Source of the DNA: Amorphus orientalis
GTDB taxonomy: Bacteria; Pseudomonadota; Alphaproteobacteria; Rhizobiales; Amorphaceae
DNA: 64,000 nucleotides
Direction: 5' to 3'
Assembly (NCBI RefSeq): GCF_030814015.1
Contig: NZ_JAUSUL010000001.1
Location: forward strand, 1 to 64,000
Shown here: positions 4,909 through 36,186 of the stretch, one piece after another
Position numbering within the stretch: the stretch's first letter is position 1
Layout of the letters: each line of letters opens with the position of its first letter
The notes under the pieces: generated by a model
Databases searched by the model: none
What the model was told of the DNA's origin: nothing
The model's input: only the letters and a program-made list of their open reading frames with translations
Made by a program: the position numbers and the translations under genes

Positions 4909-5193
4909 TCAGGCGGCGGCGCCGTCGACATCGAGAATGTCGGCCGCCTCGACCCGCTCGCAGCTCCAGCAGCGCGCACCCGGGCACTTGCAGCATTCGC
5001 CGCCACCGGCGGTGTCGTGCAGGCGGGCATGTTCGGTGGCGTGGCTGAGACAGTTCCCGCACTTCGGACGCTTGCCGAGCGCACGATAGAGCTGGCCGAC
5101 GGTGATCGGGCCGACCGGACGAACCGCTCGGACCCGTGAGACCGCCTCACGGATATCGTGGTGGGACAATGCGTTGCAGGAGCAAACGATCAT
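4909..5193 (-). CDS. Bacterioferritin-associated ferredoxin-like (2Fe-2S) protein with extra Cys-rich tail
   Basis: The 94-residue protein starts M-I-V-C-S-C-N-A-L, with C4 and C6 plus C45 and C48 (C-G-N-C) forming the four-cysteine 2Fe-2S site of Bfd/Fer2_BFD proteins. Bfd reduces bacterioferritin to release stored iron. Known Bfds end near residue 65-70; here a tail continues with C67, C68, C70, C75 and C78, a second possible metal site. The ATG at 5193 is chosen because it starts the conserved motif. The gene is upstream of and co-directional with the iron-binding protein gene (226-nt gap), and AT-rich palindromic sequences resembling iron-control elements lie upstream. Confidence 0.85.
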   Translation of the reverse strand: MIVCSCNALSHHDIREAVSRVRAVRPVGPITVGQLYRALGKRPKCGNCLSHATEHARLHDTAGGGECCKCPGARCWSCERVEAADILDVDGAAA

Positions 5194-5606
5194 GAACGCC
5201 TCAACACTCCGACCGGTCAACCTGCGATTGCCCGGCCGCATTCAGTGACCTGAGAAAACACAAGCCACCGCCTTCTCGTCAAGAAGAAAAAGACAAGTCT
5301 AAATTAGAACAAATCGCATCTAAGATGCCGGCAGGCGGCCGATTTCAAGTTAAAATAATTCTAAATTATGAATTCGGCTGAAAATACAACGGAGCCGACC
5401 CGGCAGTTCCCGCGATCTACCACGGGTAGGAGAAGACATGGGGAGACAAGGTGTCGCGATCAAGATCGGCCCACAACCGGCCACGATGCCGGACACGGCG
5501 GAGCGGCATGGTGCAATACGCCATTGTGCGCGGACGGATAGTGGAGTCATGGTCGACCCAGGCTGAGACGTGCCGGATCGCGCGGCCGATCATCGGAGAT
5601 GGGGCA
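5194..5606. other. Divergent intergenic region, AT-rich core
   Basis: The stretch separates the Bfd-like gene from the bactofilin-like gene. Positions 5260-5390 are strikingly AT-rich against a GC-rich background and contain TCTAAATTAGA-like and TTCTAAA elements (see the candidate iron element). No further gene is supported; the reading frame open on the plus strand from 5451 has atypical composition until about 5607. Confidence 0.5.
5349..5365. promoter_or_regulatory. Candidate Irr/ICE-like iron control element
   Basis: The 17-bp sequence GTTAAAA-TAA-TTCTAAA matches 12 of the 14 defined positions of the rhizobial iron control element (TTTAGAA-N3-TTCTAAA) bound by Irr. A second imperfect palindrome (TCTAAATTAGAA) lies at about 5298-5309, closer to the Bfd-like gene. 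Both sit in the AT-rich patch 100-170 nt upstream of that gene. Irr or Fur binding is inference only. Confidence 0.35.
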
Positions 5607-10862: not shown

Positions 10863-11678
10863 TTACCCGGCGTTCTGCTCGTTGCCGAGCGAATTGAAGT
10901 AGTCGTCGTTCTGGGTGCGCCACTGTTCGTCACGGGTCCACTCGAAATTGCCCTGATCGAAGCGCGGCGCGTCTTCGAGCTGCTCTTCCGACATCGGCAG
11001 GTAGTAGACTTCATCGCCCTGCGCGACGTGGATCATCTCGAAGGGAACCGCGGAGGCTTCTTCGCCGAGGCCGAGAAAGCCGCCATAGGTCACGACCGCA
11101 TAGGTCGGATGACCCTGGTTGCCGAGAACGAGATCGTCGACTTCGCCGATCCATTCGTCGTCGCGGCTGCGCAGATCGGCGCCGAGAATGTTGTCGGCGC
11201 GCACCTGACCGTCCATCTCTCCGATCGCGGTGGCGTTCTGGAAGGTCGGCTGACCCTGGGCCTGAGCCTGGTCAGCGTTCATGTTCTGCTGCTGGCTGTT
11301 GCTGGCCTGCTGCTGGGTCTGCGCGTTCTGCTGGTTCCCGGACTGCTGATTGCCGGTCTGGTCCATCCGCGACTGCTTCGCATCCCCGGGATTCTCGGTG
11401 ATGTCGTGAACCGCATCGGCGATCGACTGGCAGGCTTCGGTCTTGCCGTAGGCCTGGAGCGTTTGGGCCGCATCCCGCAGCTCGCGCAGATCGCGCATCA
11501 TCTGACCGCTGTACTCGGCCCGCTGCTCGGGATTGTTGGCGAACTGCTGCTCGATCTGCTGATTGACGACGCTGCAGTCACCCGAGTTCATGTTGGAGTT
11601 GTCGCTCTGCGCCATGGCGGGAACGCTCATCCCGGCGAACAGCGCGACGGCGGCGACGGACGTGGTCTTCAAAAACAT
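10863..11678 (-). CDS. Secreted PRC-barrel domain protein
   Basis: The 271-residue protein starts with a signal peptide (M-F-L-K-T-T-S ... V-P-A-M-A-Q). A helical, charged first half with two cysteines is followed by a low-complexity Q/N linker (about residues 110-150), then a PRC-barrel domain: N-I-L-G-A-D-L-R-S-R-D-D-E-W-I-G-E-V-D-D-L-V-L and Y-A-V-V-T-Y-G-G-F-L-G. PRC barrels are small beta barrels found in RimM, photosynthetic reaction centre H subunit and many periplasmic stress proteins of Alphaproteobacteria. The second ATG at 11678 is favoured because AAGGAGG is 7 nt before it and only 1 nt before the ATG at 11684. A perfect EcfG-type promoter lies upstream. Confidence 0.85.
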   Translation of the reverse strand: MFLKTTSVAAVALFAGMSVPAMAQSDNSNMNSGDCSVVNQQIEQQFANNPEQRAEYSGQMMRDLRELRDAAQTLQAYGKTEACQSIADAVHDITENPGDAKQSRMDQTGNQQSGNQQNAQTQQQASNSQQQNMNADQAQAQGQPTFQNATAIGEMDGQVRADNILGADLRSRDDEWIGEVDDLVLGNQGHPTYAVVTYGGFLGLGEEASAVPFEMIHVAQGDEVYYLPMSEEQLEDAPRFDQGNFEWTRDEQWRTQNDDYFNSLGNEQNAG

Positions 11679-11800
11679 ATGCATGCCTCCTTTTCACAAA
11701 TGTGAATCGGCTTCCTCTTAGGGCGAGGTATTTCGGGCGCAAACCATCGACCGGCCGCCTTGACCGGACCACGGTTTACTTCCAATTCAGCTAAATTTCG

Positions 11801-11822
11801 CATATTCCGGATCTGGAATATG
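11801..11822. promoter_or_regulatory. 22-bp near-perfect palindrome, possible operator
   Basis: Arms CATATTCC (11801-11808) and GGAATATG (11815-11822) flank GGATCT; overall 20 of 22 positions are symmetric. It sits in the leader of the PRC-barrel gene, about 83 nt downstream of the EcfG-type -10. It could be an operator or an RNA hairpin; no family is assigned. Confidence 0.4.
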
Positions 11823-14370: not shown

Positions 14371-14688
14371 CTAAACGCCCTCCCCCGCGGCCGGCGGCGG
14401 ACAGAACGCCGAATGGAGCGCGTCGACGATGATCAGCACTTCCGGCCGGGTGATCCGGTAATACTGGGTGGTGCCCTCGCGGCGGGATTCCACGAGCCCG
14501 TCCGCCCTCAGCCGCATGAGCTGTTGGGACATGGGGACCTGCGCCACATCGAGCTCCGCCCGGAGCTGACTCACCGACTTTTCCTCCCGACCGAGCGCAC
14601 ACAGGACCAGGAGCCTCTGCGGGTGAGAGAGGCTGCGCATCAGTTCGGCCGCCTCGCCGGCGGCAGGCTTCATGTCCATTACATTCAT
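14371..14688 (-). CDS. ArsR-family sulfide/persulfide-sensing repressor (SqrR/BigR-like)
   Basis: The 105-residue winged-helix protein has an ArsR helix-turn-helix (S-V-S-Q-L-R-A-E-L-D-V-A-Q-V-P-M-S-Q-Q-L-M-R-L-R) and a beta wing (R-R-E-G-T-T-Q-Y-Y-R-I). Cysteines C30 (L-V-L-C-A-L-G) and C96 (A-F-C-P-P-P) are 66 residues apart, the same spacing as C41 and C107 of Rhodobacter SqrR, which form a polysulfide bridge and leave DNA when sulfide is present. It diverges from the sulfide:quinone oxidoreductase gene, as expected for its target. An AT-rich repeat overlaps its own start region. The ATG at 14688 is chosen; an in-frame ATG at 14679 is possible. Confidence 0.9.
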   Translation of the reverse strand: MNVMDMKPAAGEAAELMRSLSHPQRLLVLCALGREEKSVSQLRAELDVAQVPMSQQLMRLRADGLVESRREGTTQYYRITRPEVLIIVDALHSAFCPPPAAGEGV

Positions 14689-14694
14689 AGTATT

Positions 14695-14707
14695 GAATTT
14701 AGCATTC
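14695..14707. promoter_or_regulatory. Candidate operator of the SqrR/BigR-like repressor
   Basis: GAAT-TTAGC-ATTC forms a small inverted repeat inside an AT-rich island (14676-14735) just upstream of the repressor start and within the divergent region before the sqr gene. Regulators of this type bind AT-rich palindromes with such half-sites. Assignment is by position and composition only. Confidence 0.4.
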
Positions 14708-14886
14708 TCTAATGTTATATGCAACTCCACGGTGATCGGCGGATCGGTCATGGGCCGCGCCCCGTCCGACCCGCCAAATCCGCAACACCGGACGTTGCGT
14801 TCGCTCAAGGATACGCCGCGCGAAAGGCCGCAAGCTGGACGCTGGTTAACTGCCCAAAAAACGCAGAACCGTAGGGAGGAACGGCC

Positions 14887-16179
14887 ATGACAGAGGTCGT
14901 CATACTTGGTGCAGGTCTCGGTGGGGTCATCATGGCCTACGAGATCAAGGACAAGCTTCGCGGCGGCGGCAACGTCACCATCATCAACAACGGGCCGACC
15001 TATTCCTTCGTCCCGTCCAATCCCTGGGTCGCGGTCGGCTGGCGCAAAACGGCGGACGTGACCGTCGAGCTGGCGCCGATTCTCGCCAAGCGCGACATCG
15101 GCTTCCGCCCCGAAGGCGCCAGGCGCGTGCATCCGGAAGACAATCGGATCGAGCTCAACGACGGAACCGAGCTCAGCTACGACTATCTCGTGATCGCCAC
15201 CGGGCCGGATCTGGCGTTCGACGAGATCGAAGGGCTCGGCCCGGAGGGCAATACCCAGTCGATCTGCATGGTCGACCATGCCGAGCGCGCCAGGACCGCA
15301 TTCGACGAGCTCGTCCGCAAGCCCGGCCCGGTGGTGGTCGGCGCGGTGCAGGGCGCGTCCTGTTTCGGACCCGCCTACGAGTTCGCGTTCGTCCTCGATA
15401 CCGCGCTGAGGCAGGCGAAGGTCCGCGACCAGGTGCCGATCACCTTCGTCACGCCCGAACCCTATGTCGGCCATCTCGGCCTCGACGGGGTTGGCGACAC
15501 CAAGGGGCTCCTCGAGAGCGCCATGCGCGAGCATCACATCAAGTGGATCACCAACGCCCGAACGGCGAAGGTCGCCCCGGGGGTGATGCACGTGGAGGAG
15601 GTCGGCGACGACGGGGCCGTCAAGGCCGAGCACGAGCTGCCGTTCGCCTACTCGATGATGCTGCCGGCGTTTCGCGGCGTGGCCGCCGTTGCCGGCATCG
15701 ACGGGCTGACCAATCCGCGCGGCTTCATCCAGATCGACAAGCACCAGCGCAACCCGGCGTTCCCGAACGTCTTCGGGATCGGGGTGTGTGTCGCCATTCC
15801 GCCGGTCGGCAAGACGCCGCTGCCCGTCGGAGTTCCGAAGACCGGCTTCATGATCGAATCCATGGTCACCGCCACGGCCCACAACATCGCGGCCCTCGTG
15901 GCCGGCGAAGAGCCCCGTGCCGTCGCCACCTGGAATGCGGTCTGTCTGGCCGATTTCGGCGACAGCGGCATCGCGTTCGTCGCCCAGCCGCAGCTCCCGC
16001 CGCGCAACGTGAACTGGTCCTCCCAGGGCCGCTGGGTCCACGCCGCCAAGATCGGTTTCGAGAAGTACTTCCTGCACAAGGTGCGCCAGGGAAAGAGCGA
16101 GACCTTCTACGAAAATCTCGCCCTGGACCTTCTTGGCGTGAAGAAGCTCAAGGACATCCACATCGAACCCGCCGAATAG
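14887..16179 (+). CDS. sqr: Sulfide:quinone oxidoreductase
   Basis: The 430-residue flavoprotein oxidises sulfide at the membrane and passes electrons to quinone. It starts with the FAD-binding G-A-G-L-G-G motif and contains V-Q-G-A-S-C-F-G-P-A-Y-E typical of SQR. Cysteines at 127, 159 and 353 coincide in number with the three cysteines essential in Rhodobacter capsulatus SQR; a fourth is C301. The C-terminal amphipathic region (F-E-K-Y-F-L-H-K-V-R-Q-G) fits peripheral membrane attachment. A GGGAGGAAC ribosome site precedes the ATG. It leads an operon with a DUF2892 protein and an RND pump, opposite the SqrR-like repressor. Confidence 0.95.
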   Translation: MTEVVILGAGLGGVIMAYEIKDKLRGGGNVTIINNGPTYSFVPSNPWVAVGWRKTADVTVELAPILAKRDIGFRPEGARRVHPEDNRIELNDGTELSYDYLVIATGPDLAFDEIEGLGPEGNTQSICMVDHAERARTAFDELVRKPGPVVVGAVQGASCFGPAYEFAFVLDTALRQAKVRDQVPITFVTPEPYVGHLGLDGVGDTKGLLESAMREHHIKWITNARTAKVAPGVMHVEEVGDDGAVKAEHELPFAYSMMLPAFRGVAAVAGIDGLTNPRGFIQIDKHQRNPAFPNVFGIGVCVAIPPVGKTPLPVGVPKTGFMIESMVTATAHNIAALVAGEEPRAVATWNAVCLADFGDSGIAFVAQPQLPPRNVNWSSQGRWVHAAKIGFEKYFLHKVRQGKSETFYENLALDLLGVKKLKDIHIEPAE

Positions 16180-16206
16180 ACTTTCGGCCAACACCTGGAG
16201 ACTGAC

Positions 16207-16410
16207 ATGACCGTTGACCGCGCCGTGATGATGTTCGCCGGCTTCGTGATCCTCGTTTCGCTGGCGCTCGGCTTTTCCGTGTCGCCGTACTGGTACCTGC
16301 TGACGGCCTTCGTCGGTCTGAACCTGATCCAGGCCTCGATGACCGGCTTCTGCCCGGCCGCCATCATCTTCAAGCGGCTCGGCATCAAGACCGGCTGCGC
16401 CTTCCAGTGA
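16207..16410 (+). CDS. DUF2892 (YgaP-like) two-helix membrane protein
   Basis: The 67-residue protein consists of two hydrophobic helices and ends with G-F-C-P-A-A-I-I-F-K-R-L-G-I-K-T-G-C, the conserved pattern of the membrane part of the YgaP rhodanese family. There is no rhodanese domain here. Such stand-alone DUF2892 proteins are common beside sulfide and persulfide genes. CTGGAG precedes the ATG, and the gene is 27 nt behind sqr. The two cysteines may take part in sulfur transfer across the membrane, which is an inference. Confidence 0.88.
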   Translation: MTVDRAVMMFAGFVILVSLALGFSVSPYWYLLTAFVGLNLIQASMTGFCPAAIIFKRLGIKTGCAFQ

Positions 16411-16527
16411 CCGGCCGGCCGGACCGACCCGCGTCCGGCCGCCCCTCTTTCCGCAATGCCGGCTCCGCGCCGGCCCCATCCCTCGCCCGTTCCGGCACCC
16501 GCCGGACCGGACAACGCCGAGTTCGTG

Positions 16528-17523
16528 ATGATGCGCGCGTCCCTTCTCGCCTTGAGCCTGCTGGCGGCAACTCCCGCAGCCGCGGCAAACCTGGTGATCG
16601 AACCGGTCGTCGTACCGGAGATGAAGGCCGTCTTCGGCCGCGTCGAGAGCCGGACCGTGACGCCGGCCCGCGCCCGCATCGGCGGAACCGTCCGCGAGAT
16701 CCGCGTGACGGAGGGCAGCCAGGTCCGGAAGGACGACGTGATCGCGGTCGTGGTCGACGACAAGATCGCGATCGAGATGTCCGCCGCCGAGGCCCGGATC
16801 AAGGCGCTGGATTCCCAGATGACCAACGCCCGGACCGAACTCGGCCGGGCGAAGCAGCTCCTCGAACGCGGCGTCGCGGCCCAGAGCCGGCTGGACGAGG
16901 CGCAGACCGCCTATGACGTGATCGTCAATCAGGTCGCCGCCGCCCAGGCCGAAAAGGCCGTCATCGAACAGCGCGCACGGGAGGGCAACGTGCTCGCCCC
17001 GGCCAGCGGCCGGGTGCTGACCGTGCCCCTGACGGTCGGATCCGTCGTTCTCGCCGGCGAGGAGATCGCTCGGATCGCGAGCGGCGGCTACTTCCTGCGG
17101 CTGTCCCTTCCCGAGCGGCATGCCTCCGAGATCGAGGAAGGTCAGGCGGTCCAGATCGGACAGCGTGGCCTGTCGCCGGCGCAGGCGGCCCAGGTCGGCG
17201 CCGCCAAGGAAGGGCGGGTCGCCAAGGTCTATCCGGAAATCGAGGAGGGGCGCGTCATCGCCGACGTCGAGGTGACGACCCTCGGCGACTACTTCGTGGG
17301 CGAGCGCACGCTGGTGCGCATTCCCGTCGGCAAGCGCAGCGTCATCGCCGTGCCGCCCGGGGCCATCAAGACGGTCCACGGCATCGACTATGTGCGCATT
17401 GCCGGCGAGGCCGGCGAGCAGGATGTCGCCGTCATCATCGGCGAGCCCGTCACCATCGACGGTGCGGAGCGCATCGAGATCCTCACCGGACTGCACGCCG
17501 GCGATCAGGTGGTGCTGCCATGA
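16528..17523 (+). CDS. RND efflux periplasmic adaptor (membrane fusion) subunit
   Basis: The 331-residue protein has a signal peptide (M-M-R-A-S-L-L-A-L-S-L-L-A ... A-A-A), a lipoyl-like half (V-R-E-I-R-V-T-E-G-S-Q-V-R-K-D-D), a coiled-coil hairpin of about 90 residues, the returning lipoyl half (G-N-V-L-A-P-A-S-G-R-V-L) and beta-barrel regions. These are the HlyD/AcrA domains linking an inner-membrane RND pump to an outer-membrane channel. Its TGA overlaps the permease ATG by 4 nt. The start is uncertain because no clear ribosome site precedes 16528. No outer-membrane channel gene is nearby. Confidence 0.93.
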   Translation: MMRASLLALSLLAATPAAAANLVIEPVVVPEMKAVFGRVESRTVTPARARIGGTVREIRVTEGSQVRKDDVIAVVVDDKIAIEMSAAEARIKALDSQMTNARTELGRAKQLLERGVAAQSRLDEAQTAYDVIVNQVAAAQAEKAVIEQRAREGNVLAPASGRVLTVPLTVGSVVLAGEEIARIASGGYFLRLSLPERHASEIEEGQAVQIGQRGLSPAQAAQVGAAKEGRVAKVYPEIEEGRVIADVEVTTLGDYFVGERTLVRIPVGKRSVIAVPPGAIKTVHGIDYVRIAGEAGEQDVAVIIGEPVTIDGAERIEILTGLHAGDQVVLP

Positions 17524-20500
17524 AGCTCGGGATTGCCGGCGGCCTGACCAAGGCCTTCATCACATCGCCCCTCACTCCGCTTTTTCTGCTGGCCTCGTTC
17601 GCGCTCGGCATCGTCGCCCTGATCACGCTGCCGCGCGAGGAGGAGCCGCAGATCTCCGTGCCGATGGTCGAGCTCCACGTCCAGGCCAACGGTCTGAAGG
17701 CGGAAGATGCGGTCAAGCTGGTCACCGAACCCCTCGAGACGATCATCAAGAGCATCGACGGGGTCGAGCACGTCTATTCGCGCACCCAGGACGACGGGGC
17801 GGTGGTGCTGGCCCGTTTTCTGGTCGGGACCAGCCAGGACGCGGCCATCCTGCGCGTGCACGAGAAGGTGCGCGCCAACATGGACCGGATTCCAGTCGGG
17901 ATTCCCGAACCGCTGATCGTCGGTCACGGCATCGACGACGTCGCCATCGTCGTCGTCACGCTGACGCCGAAGCCGGAGGCGGCCGGGCGCTGGACCGAGA
18001 ACGGACTGACCCGTCTCGCCCGGGAACTCCAGATCGAGATGGCCAAGCTGCCGGATGTCGGCCTCACCTACATCGTGGGCGAGCAGCCGGAAGAACTGCG
18101 GGTGGAGCCGGATCCGGAAAAGCTCTCCCTCTACGGGGTGACGCTGCAGCAACTCTCCCAGAAGATCCGCGGCGCCAACCAGTCGGTCCAGATCGGCCGG
18201 GTGCGGGAGGAGCAGCAGCAGCGCGCGCTCGTGGCCGGGCAGACGCTGCAGACCGGCCCGGAGATCGGCAACCTGTTCCTGACCGCCCGCGACGGCCGCC
18301 CGGTCTATGTCCGCGACGTCGCCGAGGTGACGCTTGCCACCAGCCCCAATGAGGTACGCGTCAACGACGTGCGTGTGGGCGAGGGCGGCGACCTTTCACG
18401 CGTCCCCGCCGTGTCGCTGGCGATTGCCAAGCGCCCCGGCACCAACGCCGTCGTCATCGCCGAGGAGATCCTGCACCGGCTCGACCTGATGCGCGGCCAG
18501 ATCCTGCCCGAGGACATCGACGTCGCCATCACCCGGGACTATGGCGAATCCGCCAACGAGAAGGCGAACGAGCTCCTGTTCCACCTGGGCCTGGCCACCG
18601 TCTCCATCGTGGTGCTGATCGGCTTCGCGATCGGCTGGCGCGAAGCGATGGTGACGCTGGTCGTCATCCCGACGACGATCCTGCTGACCCTCTTCGCCGC
18701 CAACATCATGGGCTACACCATCAACCGGGTGAGCCTGTTCGCGCTGATCTTCTCCATCGGCATCCTGGTGGACGACGCCATCGTGGTGATCGAGAACATC
18801 GCCCGGCACTGGGCGATGCGCGACGGACGATCCCGGGTCCAGGCGGCGATCGAGGCGGTCGCGGAGGTCGGCAATCCGACCATCGTGGCGACCCTGACGG
18901 TCATCGCCGCGCTGCTTCCGATGCTGTTCGTGTCCGGGCTGATGGGTCCCTACATGGCGCCGATCCCGGCCAACGCGTCGGCGGCGATGGTCTTCTCGTT
19001 CTTCGTCGCCGTGATCCTGACGCCTTGGCTGATGATGAAGTTCGGGCCGAAGGAGCCGCACGCACACACCGGCGACACCCACGGCGGCGGGACGAGCGCC
19101 CTCGGCCGCGTCTATATCGCGGTCGCCCGCCCGATCATCCGCACCCGGGTGCGCGCCTGGCTGTTCCTGATCCTGGTCGGGATCGCGACGCTGGCCTCCA
19201 TGGCGCTGCTCTACACCAAGGACGTCACCGTCAAGCTGCTGCCGTTCGACAACAAGACGGAGCTGCAGGTGGTCGTCGATCTGCCGGAAGGCTCGTCCGT
19301 CGAGGACACGAACCGGGTCCTGCAGCAGGTCGTGGACCGGCTGGCGGACCTGCCGGAGGCCGTCTCTTTCCAGACCTATGCCGGCACGTCGGCGCCGTTC
19401 AATTTCAACGGCCTGGTGCGCCAGTACTATCTGCGCAGCGCGCCGGAAATGGGCGACGTCCAGGTCAATCTCCTGCCGAAGGAGGAGCGCGACCGCACCA
19501 GCCACGAGACCGCGCTGGAGATGCGTGCGCGGCTCGAGGGGCTCGACATGCCCGCCGGCACATCGCTCAAGGTGGTGGAACCGCCGCCGGGTCCGCCGGT
19601 TCTGGCGACGCTTCTGGCCGAGATCTACGGTCCGGACGCGGAGACCCGGCGCGCGGTCGCAGCCAAGGTGCGCGAAGCTTACGAGAGCGTCCCGTTCATC
19701 GTCGACGTGGACGATTCCTTCGGCACGCCGGCCGAACGGGTCCGCGTCGCCATCGATCAGGCCAATCTCGAATACTACAAGGTCGAGCAGGCCGACGTGT
19801 ACGACACCGTCGGCGCGCTGTTCGGCGGGCGGACCGTGGGCTATTCCCATCGCGGCGGCGGCCGGCAGCCGATCCCGATCACCGTCGCGCTCGACAAGAG
19901 CGGCAAGGTCGTCGACGAGCGCACGCTGGCCACGCCCGTCGCCGCCAACGCCCTGCCCGGCGACCGCTCGATCGTGGAGCTCGGCGACGTGGTGGAGGTG
20001 CACCGCGAGTCGGCGTCCTATCCGATCTTCCGGCATAACGGTCGCGCGGCGGAGATGGTGCAGGCCGAGCTCGCCGGGGAGTACGAGGCGCCGATCTACG
20101 GCATGCTCGCCGTCCGGGACGCCCTCGACGAGATCGACTGGGGCGACGTGCCGAAGCCGGCCATCAAGCTGCACGGCCAGCCGGAGGACGAGAGCACCCC
20201 GACGCTTCTGTGGGACGGTGAGTGGGAAGTGACCTGGGTGACCTTCCGGGACATGGGGGCCGCGTTCGGCGTCGCCATTCTCGGCATCTACATCCTGGTC
20301 GTGGCCCAGTTCGGATCGTTCAAGCTGCCGCTGGTCATCCTGACTCCGATCCCGCTCACCCTGATCGGGATCATGATCGGGCACTGGCTGTTCCAGGCTC
20401 CGTTCACCGCGACCTCCATGATCGGCTTCATCGCGCTGGCCGGCATCATCGTGCGCAACTCGATCCTGCTGGCCGATTTCATCCGCCACACCCGCGCGCC

Positions 20501-20765
20501 GGACCGGTCGCTGCTCGACGTGCTGCTGGAAGCCGGCGCCATCCGGTTCAAGCCGATCCTCCTGACCGCCCTTGCGGCGATGATCGGCGCAGCCGTGATC
20601 CTGACCGATCCGATCTTTCAGGGTCTGGCGATCTCGCTCCTGTTCGGGCTGGCGTCCTCGACCCTGCTGACGGTGCTGGTGATTCCGGCGATCTACGTGG
20701 CACTGCGCGGCGGACGGGATCCGGCGACCACCCCTTCGGCGAGCCCGCCCGAGACATCTGTCTGA
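17520..20765 (+). CDS. RND efflux transporter permease (AcrB/HAE family)
   Basis: The 1081-residue proton-driven pump has the full RND pattern: a first transmembrane helix, a periplasmic loop, helices 2-6 including the conserved G-I-L-V-D-D-A-I-V-V-I-E-N segment, a second large loop from about residue 560, and helices 8-12. The D-D pair is the proton-relay site. A cytoplasmic H/T/G-rich loop (H-A-H-T-G-D-T-H-G-G-G) lies near residue 515, a possible metal-binding stretch. It is the last gene of the sqr operon. The substrate is unknown; location suggests sulfur-related compounds or a role during sulfide stress. Confidence 0.95.
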   Translation: MKLGIAGGLTKAFITSPLTPLFLLASFALGIVALITLPREEEPQISVPMVELHVQANGLKAEDAVKLVTEPLETIIKSIDGVEHVYSRTQDDGAVVLARFLVGTSQDAAILRVHEKVRANMDRIPVGIPEPLIVGHGIDDVAIVVVTLTPKPEAAGRWTENGLTRLARELQIEMAKLPDVGLTYIVGEQPEELRVEPDPEKLSLYGVTLQQLSQKIRGANQSVQIGRVREEQQQRALVAGQTLQTGPEIGNLFLTARDGRPVYVRDVAEVTLATSPNEVRVNDVRVGEGGDLSRVPAVSLAIAKRPGTNAVVIAEEILHRLDLMRGQILPEDIDVAITRDYGESANEKANELLFHLGLATVSIVVLIGFAIGWREAMVTLVVIPTTILLTLFAANIMGYTINRVSLFALIFSIGILVDDAIVVIENIARHWAMRDGRSRVQAAIEAVAEVGNPTIVATLTVIAALLPMLFVSGLMGPYMAPIPANASAAMVFSFFVAVILTPWLMMKFGPKEPHAHTGDTHGGGTSALGRVYIAVARPIIRTRVRAWLFLILVGIATLASMALLYTKDVTVKLLPFDNKTELQVVVDLPEGSSVEDTNRVLQQVVDRLADLPEAVSFQTYAGTSAPFNFNGLVRQYYLRSAPEMGDVQVNLLPKEERDRTSHETALEMRARLEGLDMPAGTSLKVVEPPPGPPVLATLLAEIYGPDAETRRAVAAKVREAYESVPFIVDVDDSFGTPAERVRVAIDQANLEYYKVEQADVYDTVGALFGGRTVGYSHRGGGRQPIPITVALDKSGKVVDERTLATPVAANALPGDRSIVELGDVVEVHRESASYPIFRHNGRAAEMVQAELAGEYEAPIYGMLAVRDALDEIDWGDVPKPAIKLHGQPEDESTPTLLWDGEWEVTWVTFRDMGAAFGVAILGIYILVVAQFGSFKLPLVILTPIPLTLIGIMIGHWLFQAPFTATSMIGFIALAGIIVRNSILLADFIRHTRAPDRSLLDVLLEAGAIRFKPILLTALAAMIGAAVILTDPIFQGLAISLLFGLASSTLLTVLVIPAIYVALRGGRDPATTPSASPPETSV

Positions 20766-33757: not shown

Positions 33758-35890
33758 TCAGCAGCTCGGGTTGGCCGGCTTGCCCGTATGGGACAGCAGA
33801 TGCGGGCTCACCTCGTAACCGCTGCGCAGGCCGGACCGGTTGAGATCGATGAAGTCCGAAAACGTCATCGGCCGAGCCAGAAAATTACCCTGGGCATGCC
33901 GGACGCCGAGCTGGCGAAGCGCGCGCACCTGATCCTCGCGTTCCACGCATTCGGCGACCACATCGATCCCGAGCGACGAACAGATCCGCAGAATCCCGTC
34001 CACAATCGCGAGCTTCTGGGAATCGATATTGATGTCGTCGACCAGCTTCCGGTCGATCTTCACCTGGCGCACCGAATAGGAGTTGATGTGGATCAGCGAG
34101 GAAAAGCTGTTGCCGAAATCGTCGAACGCGAAGCCGAGCCCCTTCTCGGCCAGATCGGCGAGACTGTCCGCGACCTGGAAGTGATCCCGTTCGACGACGG
34201 CGTCCTCGGAAATCTCGAGAATGAAATCGGAGAAGCCAATCTCGTCGTCGTTCAGGCTGGCCGCCACCAGCGCGACGAACTCCGGATTGCGCACCTGACT
34301 GCGTGAGACGTTCAGCGAAAACGGCACGGAGTCGGAGAACTCCGCCTTGTAGGCGGCCATGTCGGCGGCAGCCTGGCGAAGGATTCCGGCGCCCACCAGC
34401 GGCGCGGTCTCGTAGTCGTTGATGGCGGCGATGAACGACGCCGCCTCCAGGGTCCCCTCGGCCCGTCGCCAGCGCGCGAGAACTTCCGCACCGACGATCG
34501 CCCCGGTCTCCAGGTCGAACAGCGGCTGGTAGAACGGAACGATCAGATCGGCCTCGAGTGCCTGCCGGACGTCCCGTAGCAGCTCGTCCCGGGCCTGCAG
34601 CTCATAGCCGAAGCGGGACTCGTAAAGCGTCATCCGCCGGTCGTGATTGTTTTTGGTCCGGAACAAGGCAATGTCGGCGTTCCGGTAGAGATCCTCGCCG
34701 CTCTCGCCGTGGGTCGGGAACAACGCAACCCCCATGCTCATGCGCACCGGAATGACCGTGCCGCGATAGTCGAACTTGAAGTCCGTCGCCTGGCTGAGCC
34801 GTTCCAGTGGCGGATAGACATCGCCCTCGCCCCTGAGATCGCCGAGGATGACCGCGAACTCGTCACCTCCCAGGCGCGCGATGGAATCGGTGGCGCGAAT
34901 GGTGTCGAGCAGCACGTCGGAGATGTGCTTGAGCAGCAGGTCGCCGGCCTCGTGGCCGTAGACGTCGTTGACCATCTTGAAGTTGTCGACGTCGAAGATG
35001 ACGAGCCCGATTTCCTCGTCGAACCGTTTTGCGTGTTCGATTGCCCGGCTGAGGCGATCCTGGAACAGCATGCGGTTCGGCAATCCCGTCAGCGGATCGT
35101 GGTTGGCCGTCCACCACAGCCGGCGCTCGGCTTCCTTTTCTTCCGTCACGTCCTGGATGACACCGAACAGGGAGGCGGTTCCGCCGTCGACCTGCTCCGG
35201 CTCCGCCATCACGCGGACGAACTTGCGCGTCCCGGACGCGGTCTCGGCCGGCATCGCCAGCGTAAAGCCGGCGCCGGTTTGCATGGCTTCCTCGAACTTG
35301 CCGCGGAGGTTGGCCTGCGCCTCCTTGGGATAGAAGCTCAAGGCCCGTTCCAGCGAGATCGGGTCGCCGGGCTTCAGATCGAAGATGCGGTAGACCTCGT
35401 CGGACCAGGTGAGGGCCCGGGAGTCCAGGTCCAGTTGCCACCGCCCGGTCCGCGACATCGTTTCGAACCGGGTCATCACCGAAACGGTGCGCTGCAGGGC
35501 CCCGATTTCCTGAACTTTGCCAACCACCTGACGTACGAGGGCGCCGATGCTCGGCAACGCCCGCTCGAGGCTGTTCCCGGCATCCTCCGCATCGCCGTCG
35601 ACGGCGATCCGGACCGAAGCGCCCTCATCGGTCAGCTGCATGTCGCTCACCAGAAGGGAGCCGTCCGCTGCCGCCTCTTCCGGGGCCTCGGGCTTCAGGA
35701 CAAGCGCCGCTTCGATTTTGCCGGCGACTTGCGGATTGTCGGCATTCACACCGACCCAGACACGACCTTCCGCGGCAAGAGCAATTCCCGCGCCTGCTCC
35801 GCCCAGAACAGAACGGAGAACGGCAGCGACGGACTCCAGCTCGCCGAGTTCTTTCGGCGCGTCAGCTAGGTCACCCTTTGCATGTGTCAT
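33758..35890 (-). CDS. PAS-GGDEF-EAL cyclic-di-GMP signalling protein
   Basis: The 710-residue protein has an unassigned N-terminal 140 residues, a PAS fold (about 150-255), a GGDEF domain with intact G-G-D-E-F at 341-345 and an inhibitory I-site R-x-x-D at 332-335, and an EAL domain from about 440. The EAL motif is E-V-L (469-471); the metal and catalytic pattern L-N-V-S, L-E-I-S-E, F-D-D-F-G, K-I-D-R and V-A-E-C-V-E is largely kept, so both synthesis and hydrolysis of cyclic-di-GMP are possible. No membrane segment is seen, so it is cytosolic. It is monocistronic. Confidence 0.94.
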   Translation of the reverse strand: MTHAKGDLADAPKELGELESVAAVLRSVLGGAGAGIALAAEGRVWVGVNADNPQVAGKIEAALVLKPEAPEEAAADGSLLVSDMQLTDEGASVRIAVDGDAEDAGNSLERALPSIGALVRQVVGKVQEIGALQRTVSVMTRFETMSRTGRWQLDLDSRALTWSDEVYRIFDLKPGDPISLERALSFYPKEAQANLRGKFEEAMQTGAGFTLAMPAETASGTRKFVRVMAEPEQVDGGTASLFGVIQDVTEEKEAERRLWWTANHDPLTGLPNRMLFQDRLSRAIEHAKRFDEEIGLVIFDVDNFKMVNDVYGHEAGDLLLKHISDVLLDTIRATDSIARLGGDEFAVILGDLRGEGDVYPPLERLSQATDFKFDYRGTVIPVRMSMGVALFPTHGESGEDLYRNADIALFRTKNNHDRRMTLYESRFGYELQARDELLRDVRQALEADLIVPFYQPLFDLETGAIVGAEVLARWRRAEGTLEAASFIAAINDYETAPLVGAGILRQAAADMAAYKAEFSDSVPFSLNVSRSQVRNPEFVALVAASLNDDEIGFSDFILEISEDAVVERDHFQVADSLADLAEKGLGFAFDDFGNSFSSLIHINSYSVRQVKIDRKLVDDINIDSQKLAIVDGILRICSSLGIDVVAECVEREDQVRALRQLGVRHAQGNFLARPMTFSDFIDLNRSGLRSGYEVSPHLLSHTGKPANPSC

Positions 35891-36186
35891 AAGCGGGTCG
35901 CTAATGGTCTGTCAGGTGGGCAATCGAAAGCAGCAGCACTTCCAAGCGAAGCCGGACCCCTATATGTGCCGATATCATATCCGCCGCAGAGTCCGGTCGC
36001 CTACGGTCAACCGCCTGTTCGCGGAGGCCGTGCGCTTCCATTCGAATGTACGAATATGGCGGCAATTTATGAAAAATGGAACAGGCCATCCGTGAAAAAT
36101 CATGTCTAGAAGCGCTTTTTTTTGCCTCTCGCGCAAGCAGCATTACGTATTTGTAAGCTTCGATCCTGTCCTCGAAAGTCGAAACA
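35891..36186. other. Divergent intergenic region, AT-rich (296 nt)
   Basis: The spacer between the GGDEF/EAL gene and the methyltransferase gene is AT-rich from about 36045 to 36175, with an eight-T run at 36115-36122. It should hold both promoters. No palindrome or small gene stood out. Confidence 0.4.

Follow-up and report, generated by a model that had tools for sequence, protein, structure and literature searches.

A stretch of 64,000 nucleotides of Amorphus orientalis DNA (contig NZ_JAUSUL010000001.1, positions 1 to 64,000; hereafter the window) carries, at positions 14371–20765, a SqrR-like repressor gene facing sqr, a DUF2892 gene and the coupled adaptor and permease genes of an RND efflux pump. 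We read this locus as a sulfide- or persulfide-responsive operon that has the RND pump among its dedicated components, and we give that reading a probability of about 0.65. Within it, the pump is, judging from sequence, very probably regulated by a sulfane-sulfur repressor. The first-pass annotation had taken the shared operon as a hint that the pump exports polysulfide, thiol-linked compounds or another sulfide-stress product. Linkage, operator sites, the history of rearrangement and co-occurrence with sulfide:quinone oxidoreductase (SQR) uphold the pump's place in the sulfide response, while whatever goes beyond membership is left here as a proposal.

Gene content of the locus

All five genes of the earlier layout were confirmed at their coordinates. 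The repressor (14371–14688, minus strand; 105 aa) was identified by profile and alignment: it scored 32.7 bits against the ArsR winged-helix profile PF01022 (cut-off 22) and aligned without gaps to a solved two-cysteine ArsR chain (e.g., 6o8l), which we take to be Rhodobacter capsulatus SqrR, with 39 of 93 residues identical (42%) and both cysteines matched. These residues, C30 and C96, are its only cysteines, in agreement with the spacing of 66 residues noticed at first pass. Against the NCBIfam BigR equivalog NF040642 the repressor reached 84.3 bits, under the cut-off of 155, and is therefore not classed as BigR itself.

Divergent from the repressor gene, sqr (14887–16179, plus strand; 430 aa) was recognized by profile and solved-structure alignment. 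The encoded SQR has four cysteines (C127, C159, C301 and C353), and the three that had been singled out earlier as essential, C127, C159 and C353, match cysteine positions in the solved SQR 3sz0; the flavin adenine dinucleotide (FAD) fold was also found. We take 3sz0 to be the SQR of Acidithiobacillus ferrooxidans and its three aligned cysteines to be catalytic. A search of the A. orientalis genome gave no second SQR match at E 0.001. A search for SoxY gave no match in this genome, but none in any control genome either, and it therefore does not speak for absence of the gene.

The next gene (16207–16410, plus strand) encodes a 67-aa DUF2892 protein (profile PF11127), that is, a YgaP-like transmembrane domain alone: the YgaP architecture of rhodanese plus transmembrane domain is absent, and a protein of this length cannot fit a rhodanese domain. 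It is the sole PF11127 match in the genome, and all 44 aligned rows share its C49 (this count includes the window twice and omits cluster members of other lengths). The RND periplasmic adaptor (16528–17523, plus strand; alternative start 16456) and the permease (17520–20765, plus strand; 1081 aa) are both cysteine-free, and their genes overlap by 4 bases, the adaptor stop ending at 17523 and the permease starting at 17520. For the adaptor, the start at 16528 is the more likely one because an apparent signal peptide follows it. If the adaptor starts there, 117 bases separate it from DUF2892, and this gap holds a GC-rich hairpin without a T-run (16417–16440, plus strand), a possible processing or attenuation point; with that hairpin in between, a single transcript across all four plus-strand genes is likely rather than certain.

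Linkage of the pump to sulfide genes

The neighborhood of this RND subfamily, which the first-pass annotation had named as a check, was analyzed at 59 subfamily loci and 21 loci with more distant pumps (41–44% identity), together the best 80 of at least 586 confirmed places in the genome collection. As controls we used 40 RND loci, hand-chosen among rows of at most 30% identity from a search of 61 genomes (two genomes gave two each) and lying in genomes other than those of the 59-locus set. Near the subfamily pumps, an adaptor was present at 56 loci, DUF2892 at 39 of 59 (0 of 40 controls), a SqrR-like gene at 36 (3 controls, none with both cysteines), SQR at 24 of 59 (1 of 40) and thioredoxin at 15 (0 controls); the subfamily counts lean high, since the neighbor profiles were built from the same loci in which they were then counted. 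A two-cysteine SqrR was found at 29/59 subfamily loci versus 0/40 controls, and either DUF2892 or SQR at 40/59 versus 1/40. The comparison was made with a Fisher test, and chance linkage was ruled out by the control loci. The link was much weaker for the 21 distant pumps (DUF2892 at 6, SQR at 1, a SqrR-like gene at 3, thioredoxin at 1 and a two-cysteine SqrR at 1).

A count free of this profile circularity, except for 2 duplicates, came from an even sampling of the phylum, in which SQR was present at 24 of the 33 subfamily loci other than that of the window, DUF2892 at 25 and a two-cysteine SqrR at 23, the last under a looser rule (cysteines 62–68 apart anywhere in the match). Some sulfide-response partner or operator lay nearby at 31 of the 33. 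An order sample gave some sulfur link at 12 of 17 loci; loci L046 and L048 are common to both samples.

Linkage has been kept while the order of the genes has not. On the permease tree, the place, strand or absence of the repressor changed at least 14 times by parsimony, and at least 9 times among the 26 repressor-positive loci (a quick LG+G4 tree with the long outgroup branch L131 flagged; 42 of 50 alphaproteobacterial rows, those with 3 kb on both sides, were scored). Linkage kept through such repeated rearrangement points to function. DUF2892 stands directly before the adaptor in 11 loci (window included), and in 7 of these the two matches overlap or lie at most 16 bases apart.

Pump and SQR also occur together at the level of whole genomes. 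Among 289 evenly drawn Alphaproteobacteria, the pump (E 1e-300) was found in 26, this SQR (E 1e-60) in 13 and both in 10, so that the pump was present in 10/13 genomes with this SQR versus 16/276 without (p=1e-8, own genome excluded); in one of the ten, G530, pump and SQR are on separate contigs. Plasmid 1 of Paracoccus denitrificans PD1222 carries genes for an MBL-fold hydrolase, DUF2892, YeeE/YedE, DUF6691, a TIGR01244 sulfur transferase and ArsR, followed by two cytochromes, DUF2892, the adaptor and the permease. Azospirillum brasilense has TrxC, an FAD oxidoreductase, DUF2892, the pump, a rhodanese-like protein and ArsR.

Among the distant pumps, the six loci with DUF2892 nearby (L128, L131, L134, L136, L137 and L143) come from records titled Acidobacteria, Terriglobia, Nitrospira, Opitutales, Deltaproteobacteria and one archaeon, and the tie between DUF2892 and RND pumps may therefore predate the alphaproteobacterial subfamily. 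One of them, an Opitutales metagenome-assembled genome (L136:1992-8389), has a two-cysteine SqrR, DUF2892, TolC, the adaptor and the permease in a row, and its leader holds an exact ATTC-N8-GAAT. The pump loci of L110 and L128, whose records are titled Candidatus Sulfopaludibacter (Acidobacteria) and Methanoregulaceae archaeon, look out of place and are likely foreign contigs in bins of metagenome-assembled genomes.

SqrR-type operators at pump loci

The recognition pattern deduced for SqrR is ATTC-N8-GAAT (PMC9774250). A pattern scan found an exact, putative operator of this form at 14683–14698, overlapping the sqrR start codon. The window holds 4 exact sites versus 0.58 expected, a number reached by 0 of 100 shuffles, and these are 4 of the 18 sites in the 4.7 Mb genome. 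With one mismatch allowed, the window count (11 versus 12.6 expected) was at chance level, and our claims are therefore confined to exact sites. A longer footprint of 37 bases (14681–14717), ACATTCAT..T.TTGAA.TTA..AT....(G/T)AATGTTA, is kept in the window and in five relatives picked for similar layout. In two of these five, L067 and L040, no SQR turned up in the interval from sqrR to DUF2892, and the conserved footprint region therefore directly faces DUF2892, adaptor and permease. From reading the sequence, a candidate promoter toward sqr, TTGAAT-N17-TATATG (14693–14721, plus strand; 8 of 12 consensus positions), would overlap the operator. An automatic scan, which needs 9 of 12 consensus positions, listed no promoter in the locus region and no terminator in the DUF2892–adaptor gap.

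Across 60 loci (window included), exact sites were concentrated near the starts of component genes, with 13 in 57.5 kb versus 9 in 944 kb elsewhere, while the control loci had 0 in 19 kb near gene starts and 6 in 710 kb elsewhere; in these densities, gene-start regions are set against the whole of the remaining DNA, uncorrected for base composition. A leader shuffle test, in which composition was corrected for, gave an exact operator in 6 of 55 subfamily leaders versus a shuffle mean of 0.35 and a maximum of 2 (200 shuffles). Control leaders had none (0/40), and the 1 in 18 distant leaders was within the shuffle range (mean 0.14, largest 2). At 8 of the 13 operator loci no SqrR-like gene was found in the available stretch, and in 7 of those 8 the site lies just before, or at most 60 bases from, the start of the adaptor match. 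Such sites at pumps that lack a repressor nearby are the pattern expected from trans regulation by a SqrR encoded elsewhere. Beyond the 60-locus counts, sites near gene starts were seen at 8 of 33 phylum-sample and 5 of 17 order-sample loci, two of the 33 being duplicates and one site-bearing locus belonging to both samples.

The three other exact sites of the window lie away from the pump locus. The site at 36040–36055 precedes a GGDEF-EAL gene (33758–35890, minus strand) by ~150 bases and, on the plus strand, a methyltransferase-like frame by ~130 bases. In R. capsulatus, the GGDEF/EAL gene rcc00645 was up 119-fold in an sqrR deletion (PMC9143464), and by this precedent the GGDEF-EAL gene of the window could be a second SqrR target. 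The remaining two sites fall outside genes by frame scoring: one at 5358–5373, ~117 bases before a BFD-like [2Fe-2S] gene (4909–5241, minus strand), and one at 11804–11819, ~120 bases before a PRC-barrel gene (10863–11684, minus strand).

A bounded permease subfamily

By sequence comparison, the permease is a member of a sharply bounded alphaproteobacterial subfamily. In 61 genomes (the genome of A. orientalis and 60 relatives), a close permease of at least 65% identity was present in 18, the own genome included; below these came a group at ~39–50% identity and then ordinary RND pumps at 30% or less. Among 398 genomes of the phylum, 34 had a permease of bit score 1622 or more, and the next best match scored 1147. 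The permease stayed below the curated NCBIfam cut-off of every RND permease model that it matched, including RND_permease_1 and _2 (337 and 407 bits, cut-offs 1250). Identity as a metal RND pump was set aside on a score of 243 bits against the heavy-metal RND model TIGR00914, whose cut-off is 701. The pump frame at L092:8001-11252 has one stop codon within the matched range.

The structural model (mean predicted local distance difference test score 83.5) has an AcrB-like fold and, in transmembrane helix 4 (TM4), the motif VDDAIV, so that the predicted fold and the aspartate pair are those of a proton-driven exporter. The two aspartates, D418 and D419, were invariant in 23 aligned permease rows, and a fold search gave Z 45.0–47.6 at 19–22% identity, among the matches listed, to HAE-type RND pumps. 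A periplasmic loop with the family signature PFNFNGLVR (residues 626–634; codons at 19395–19421, plus strand) lies in the model between strands 614–621 and 644–651, part of it at low confidence. By position, we take this loop to be the substrate-pocket switch loop of AcrB. The relaxed motif P[FIL][ND]FNG[LM]VR was found in 47/50 subfamily permeases, 15/20 distant permeases and 0/34 controls, and cysteine-free permeases numbered 38/50, 9/20 and 5/34, respectively (50 of 60, 20 of 21 and 34 of 40 rows were used, incomplete or stop-containing ranges being omitted). Conservation of the pocket loop hints at a narrow ligand, and the spread of the motif speaks for a single conserved class of ligand instead of broad drug binding. 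We would guess that the avoidance of cysteine suits a protein that meets sulfane sulfur.

Proposed mechanism and alternatives

The mechanism that we propose, in which derepression and co-transcription are inferred from relatives, is as follows. Without sulfide, the SqrR-like protein would occupy ATTC-N8-GAAT, covering both the start of its own gene and the divergent sqr promoter, and keep the two repressed. When sulfide is present, per- or polysulfides would bridge C30 and C96 and release the repressor from DNA, a step modeled on R. capsulatus SqrR because a tetrasulfide bridge abolishes DNA binding there (PMC9143464). Upon release, sqr, DUF2892 and the pump would be expressed together, SQR would oxidize sulfide to sulfane sulfur at the membrane, and the pump would clear a product of this chemistry from the inner membrane or periplasm through an unlinked TolC. 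The product would most likely be sulfane sulfur (polysulfide, S8) or a sulfur-conjugated metabolite, and DUF2892 might, as a guess, serve as a hand-off partner. That the substrate is sulfane sulfur is itself a tentative guess, held at clearly less than even odds. The fuller proposal, in which the subfamily is a dedicated exporter of SQR-made polysulfide or S8, with DUF2892 (through Cys49) as membrane hand-off partner and TolC as exit, we regard as doubtful.

Several observations weigh against the operon reading. Neither DUF2892 nor SQR was found at 19 of the 59 subfamily loci and no SqrR-like gene in the available stretch of 23 of 59, several of the loci in both cases being cut by contig ends; no sulfur link was seen at 2 of 33 phylum-sample and 5 of 17 order-sample loci, and 16 of the 26 pump genomes are without this SQR. 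A Shinella plasmid copy stands beside TetR and ABC genes, near an IS6 transposase, with no sulfur partner in the stretch seen. In the window, the hairpin separates DUF2892 and the adaptor. In sequence, the closest solved pumps are multidrug exporters; in fold, the scores of multidrug pumps and of the metal pump CusA are nearly equal. Sulfane sulfur may also have another exit, since two persulfide-dioxygenase-like proteins are encoded elsewhere in the genome (C1:995147-996001 and C1:1377095-1377958), with 423 and 391 bits against the dioxygenase part of NF040641, under the cut-off of 625. In Azospira suillum PS, deletion of a whole operon with SQR and RND genes left the sulfide oxidation rate unchanged (PMC5358917).

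An alternative that we consider unlikely is a pump that is induced by sulfide and carries some other cargo, such as metal-sulfide complexes, metals, products of quinone or lipid damage, or antibiotics that are more toxic under sulfide. The Azospira authors propose metal sulfide export for upregulated pumps (PMC5358917), and the fold and TM4 aspartates of our permease are those of general RND exporters. However, its score against the heavy-metal model is far under the cut-off, and the pocket-loop motif, frequent in the subfamily and absent from the controls, argues for one conserved ligand class.

It is quite improbable that the pump genes form a separate transcription unit in this genome, with their own promoter near the hairpin and outside SqrR-like control. 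The 117-base gap with its strong hairpin would suit such an arrangement, but the automatic scan listed neither a promoter in the region nor a terminator in the gap, the DUF2892 and adaptor matches adjoin closely or overlap in most of the adjoining loci, and operators are found at the adaptor start in loci without a local repressor. Least probable of all is that the pump lies near sulfide genes because islands travel together, its function being unrelated: no close copy was found in the one same-genus or the eight same-family relatives searched, so the cassette may have been acquired, and copies of at least 60% identity occur in 37 plasmid records (54 with any copy at E 1e-100), but the retained linkage, the operators at pumps without a local repressor and the co-occurrence with SQR even on a separate contig (G530) all speak against it.

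How zero-valent sulfur leaves sulfide-oxidizing cells is an open question; for the extracellular sulfur globules of Chlorobaculum, the mechanism was called unknown in 2025 and outer membrane vesicles were proposed (PMC12285230). If true, a sulfane-sulfur exporter would give sulfide oxidizers a route, missing so far, for delivering zero-valent sulfur to the outside. With this pump family, which is tied to sulfide sensing and has an operator, a signature motif and hosts such as Paracoccus denitrificans, active export can be tested directly. Given that RND pumps are commonly interpreted as drug pumps, there is also a possible bearing on how sulfide could alter drug tolerance.

Comparison with known systems

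A role in sulfide stress had been called unusual for RND pumps by the first-pass annotation, a claim that published work tempers: RND pumps are among the genes near two-cysteine sulfane-sulfur regulators (PMC12423496), and in Azospira suillum PS the operon Dsui_3440-3443, with SQR, an RND permease and an adaptor, is reported to be sulfide-induced and highly expressed under H2S-oxidizing conditions (PMC5358917). No functional study of this pump family was found in the open-licence PMC literature. New here are the bounds of the subfamily, the controls, the operator evidence and the pocket-loop motif.

The Azospira operon resembles our locus in gene content, SQR standing with an RND permease and adaptor in one operon; it differs in gene order, and SqrR and DUF2892 are unnamed in the available text. 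The R. capsulatus SqrR regulon shares the two-cysteine ArsR repressor, with equal spacing and ungapped alignment, the ATTC-N8-GAAT pattern and sqr as a partner. A thioredoxin gene close to 15 of 59 related pumps is a further parallel, as trxC is under sulfide and SqrR control in R. capsulatus (PMC10044876). It differs in that trxC is distant from sqr there. In the parts available, RND is unmentioned in PMC9995734 and PMC9143464 and efflux in PMC10044876. BigR operons of Xylella, Agrobacterium and Acinetobacter likewise join an ArsR-family persulfide sensor to a sulfide-detoxifying output (PMC7315123, PMC5823870). Their output as described is a dioxygenase or sulfurtransferase, in Acinetobacter a dioxygenase with two other membrane proteins, and no RND pump, and the repressor of the window scores below the BigR equivalog cut-off. 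In Escherichia coli, YgaV is a SqrR/BigR homologue (PMC9774250), and the DUF2892 protein of the window corresponds to the transmembrane domain of YgaP but is without its rhodanese domain. With the HAE-type RND pumps AcrB, OqxB, AdeB and MexK, finally, the permease shares the fold and the TM4 aspartate pair, and it is set apart from them by scores below the curated cut-offs, by a pocket-loop motif of its own and by a subfamily that is mostly cysteine-free.

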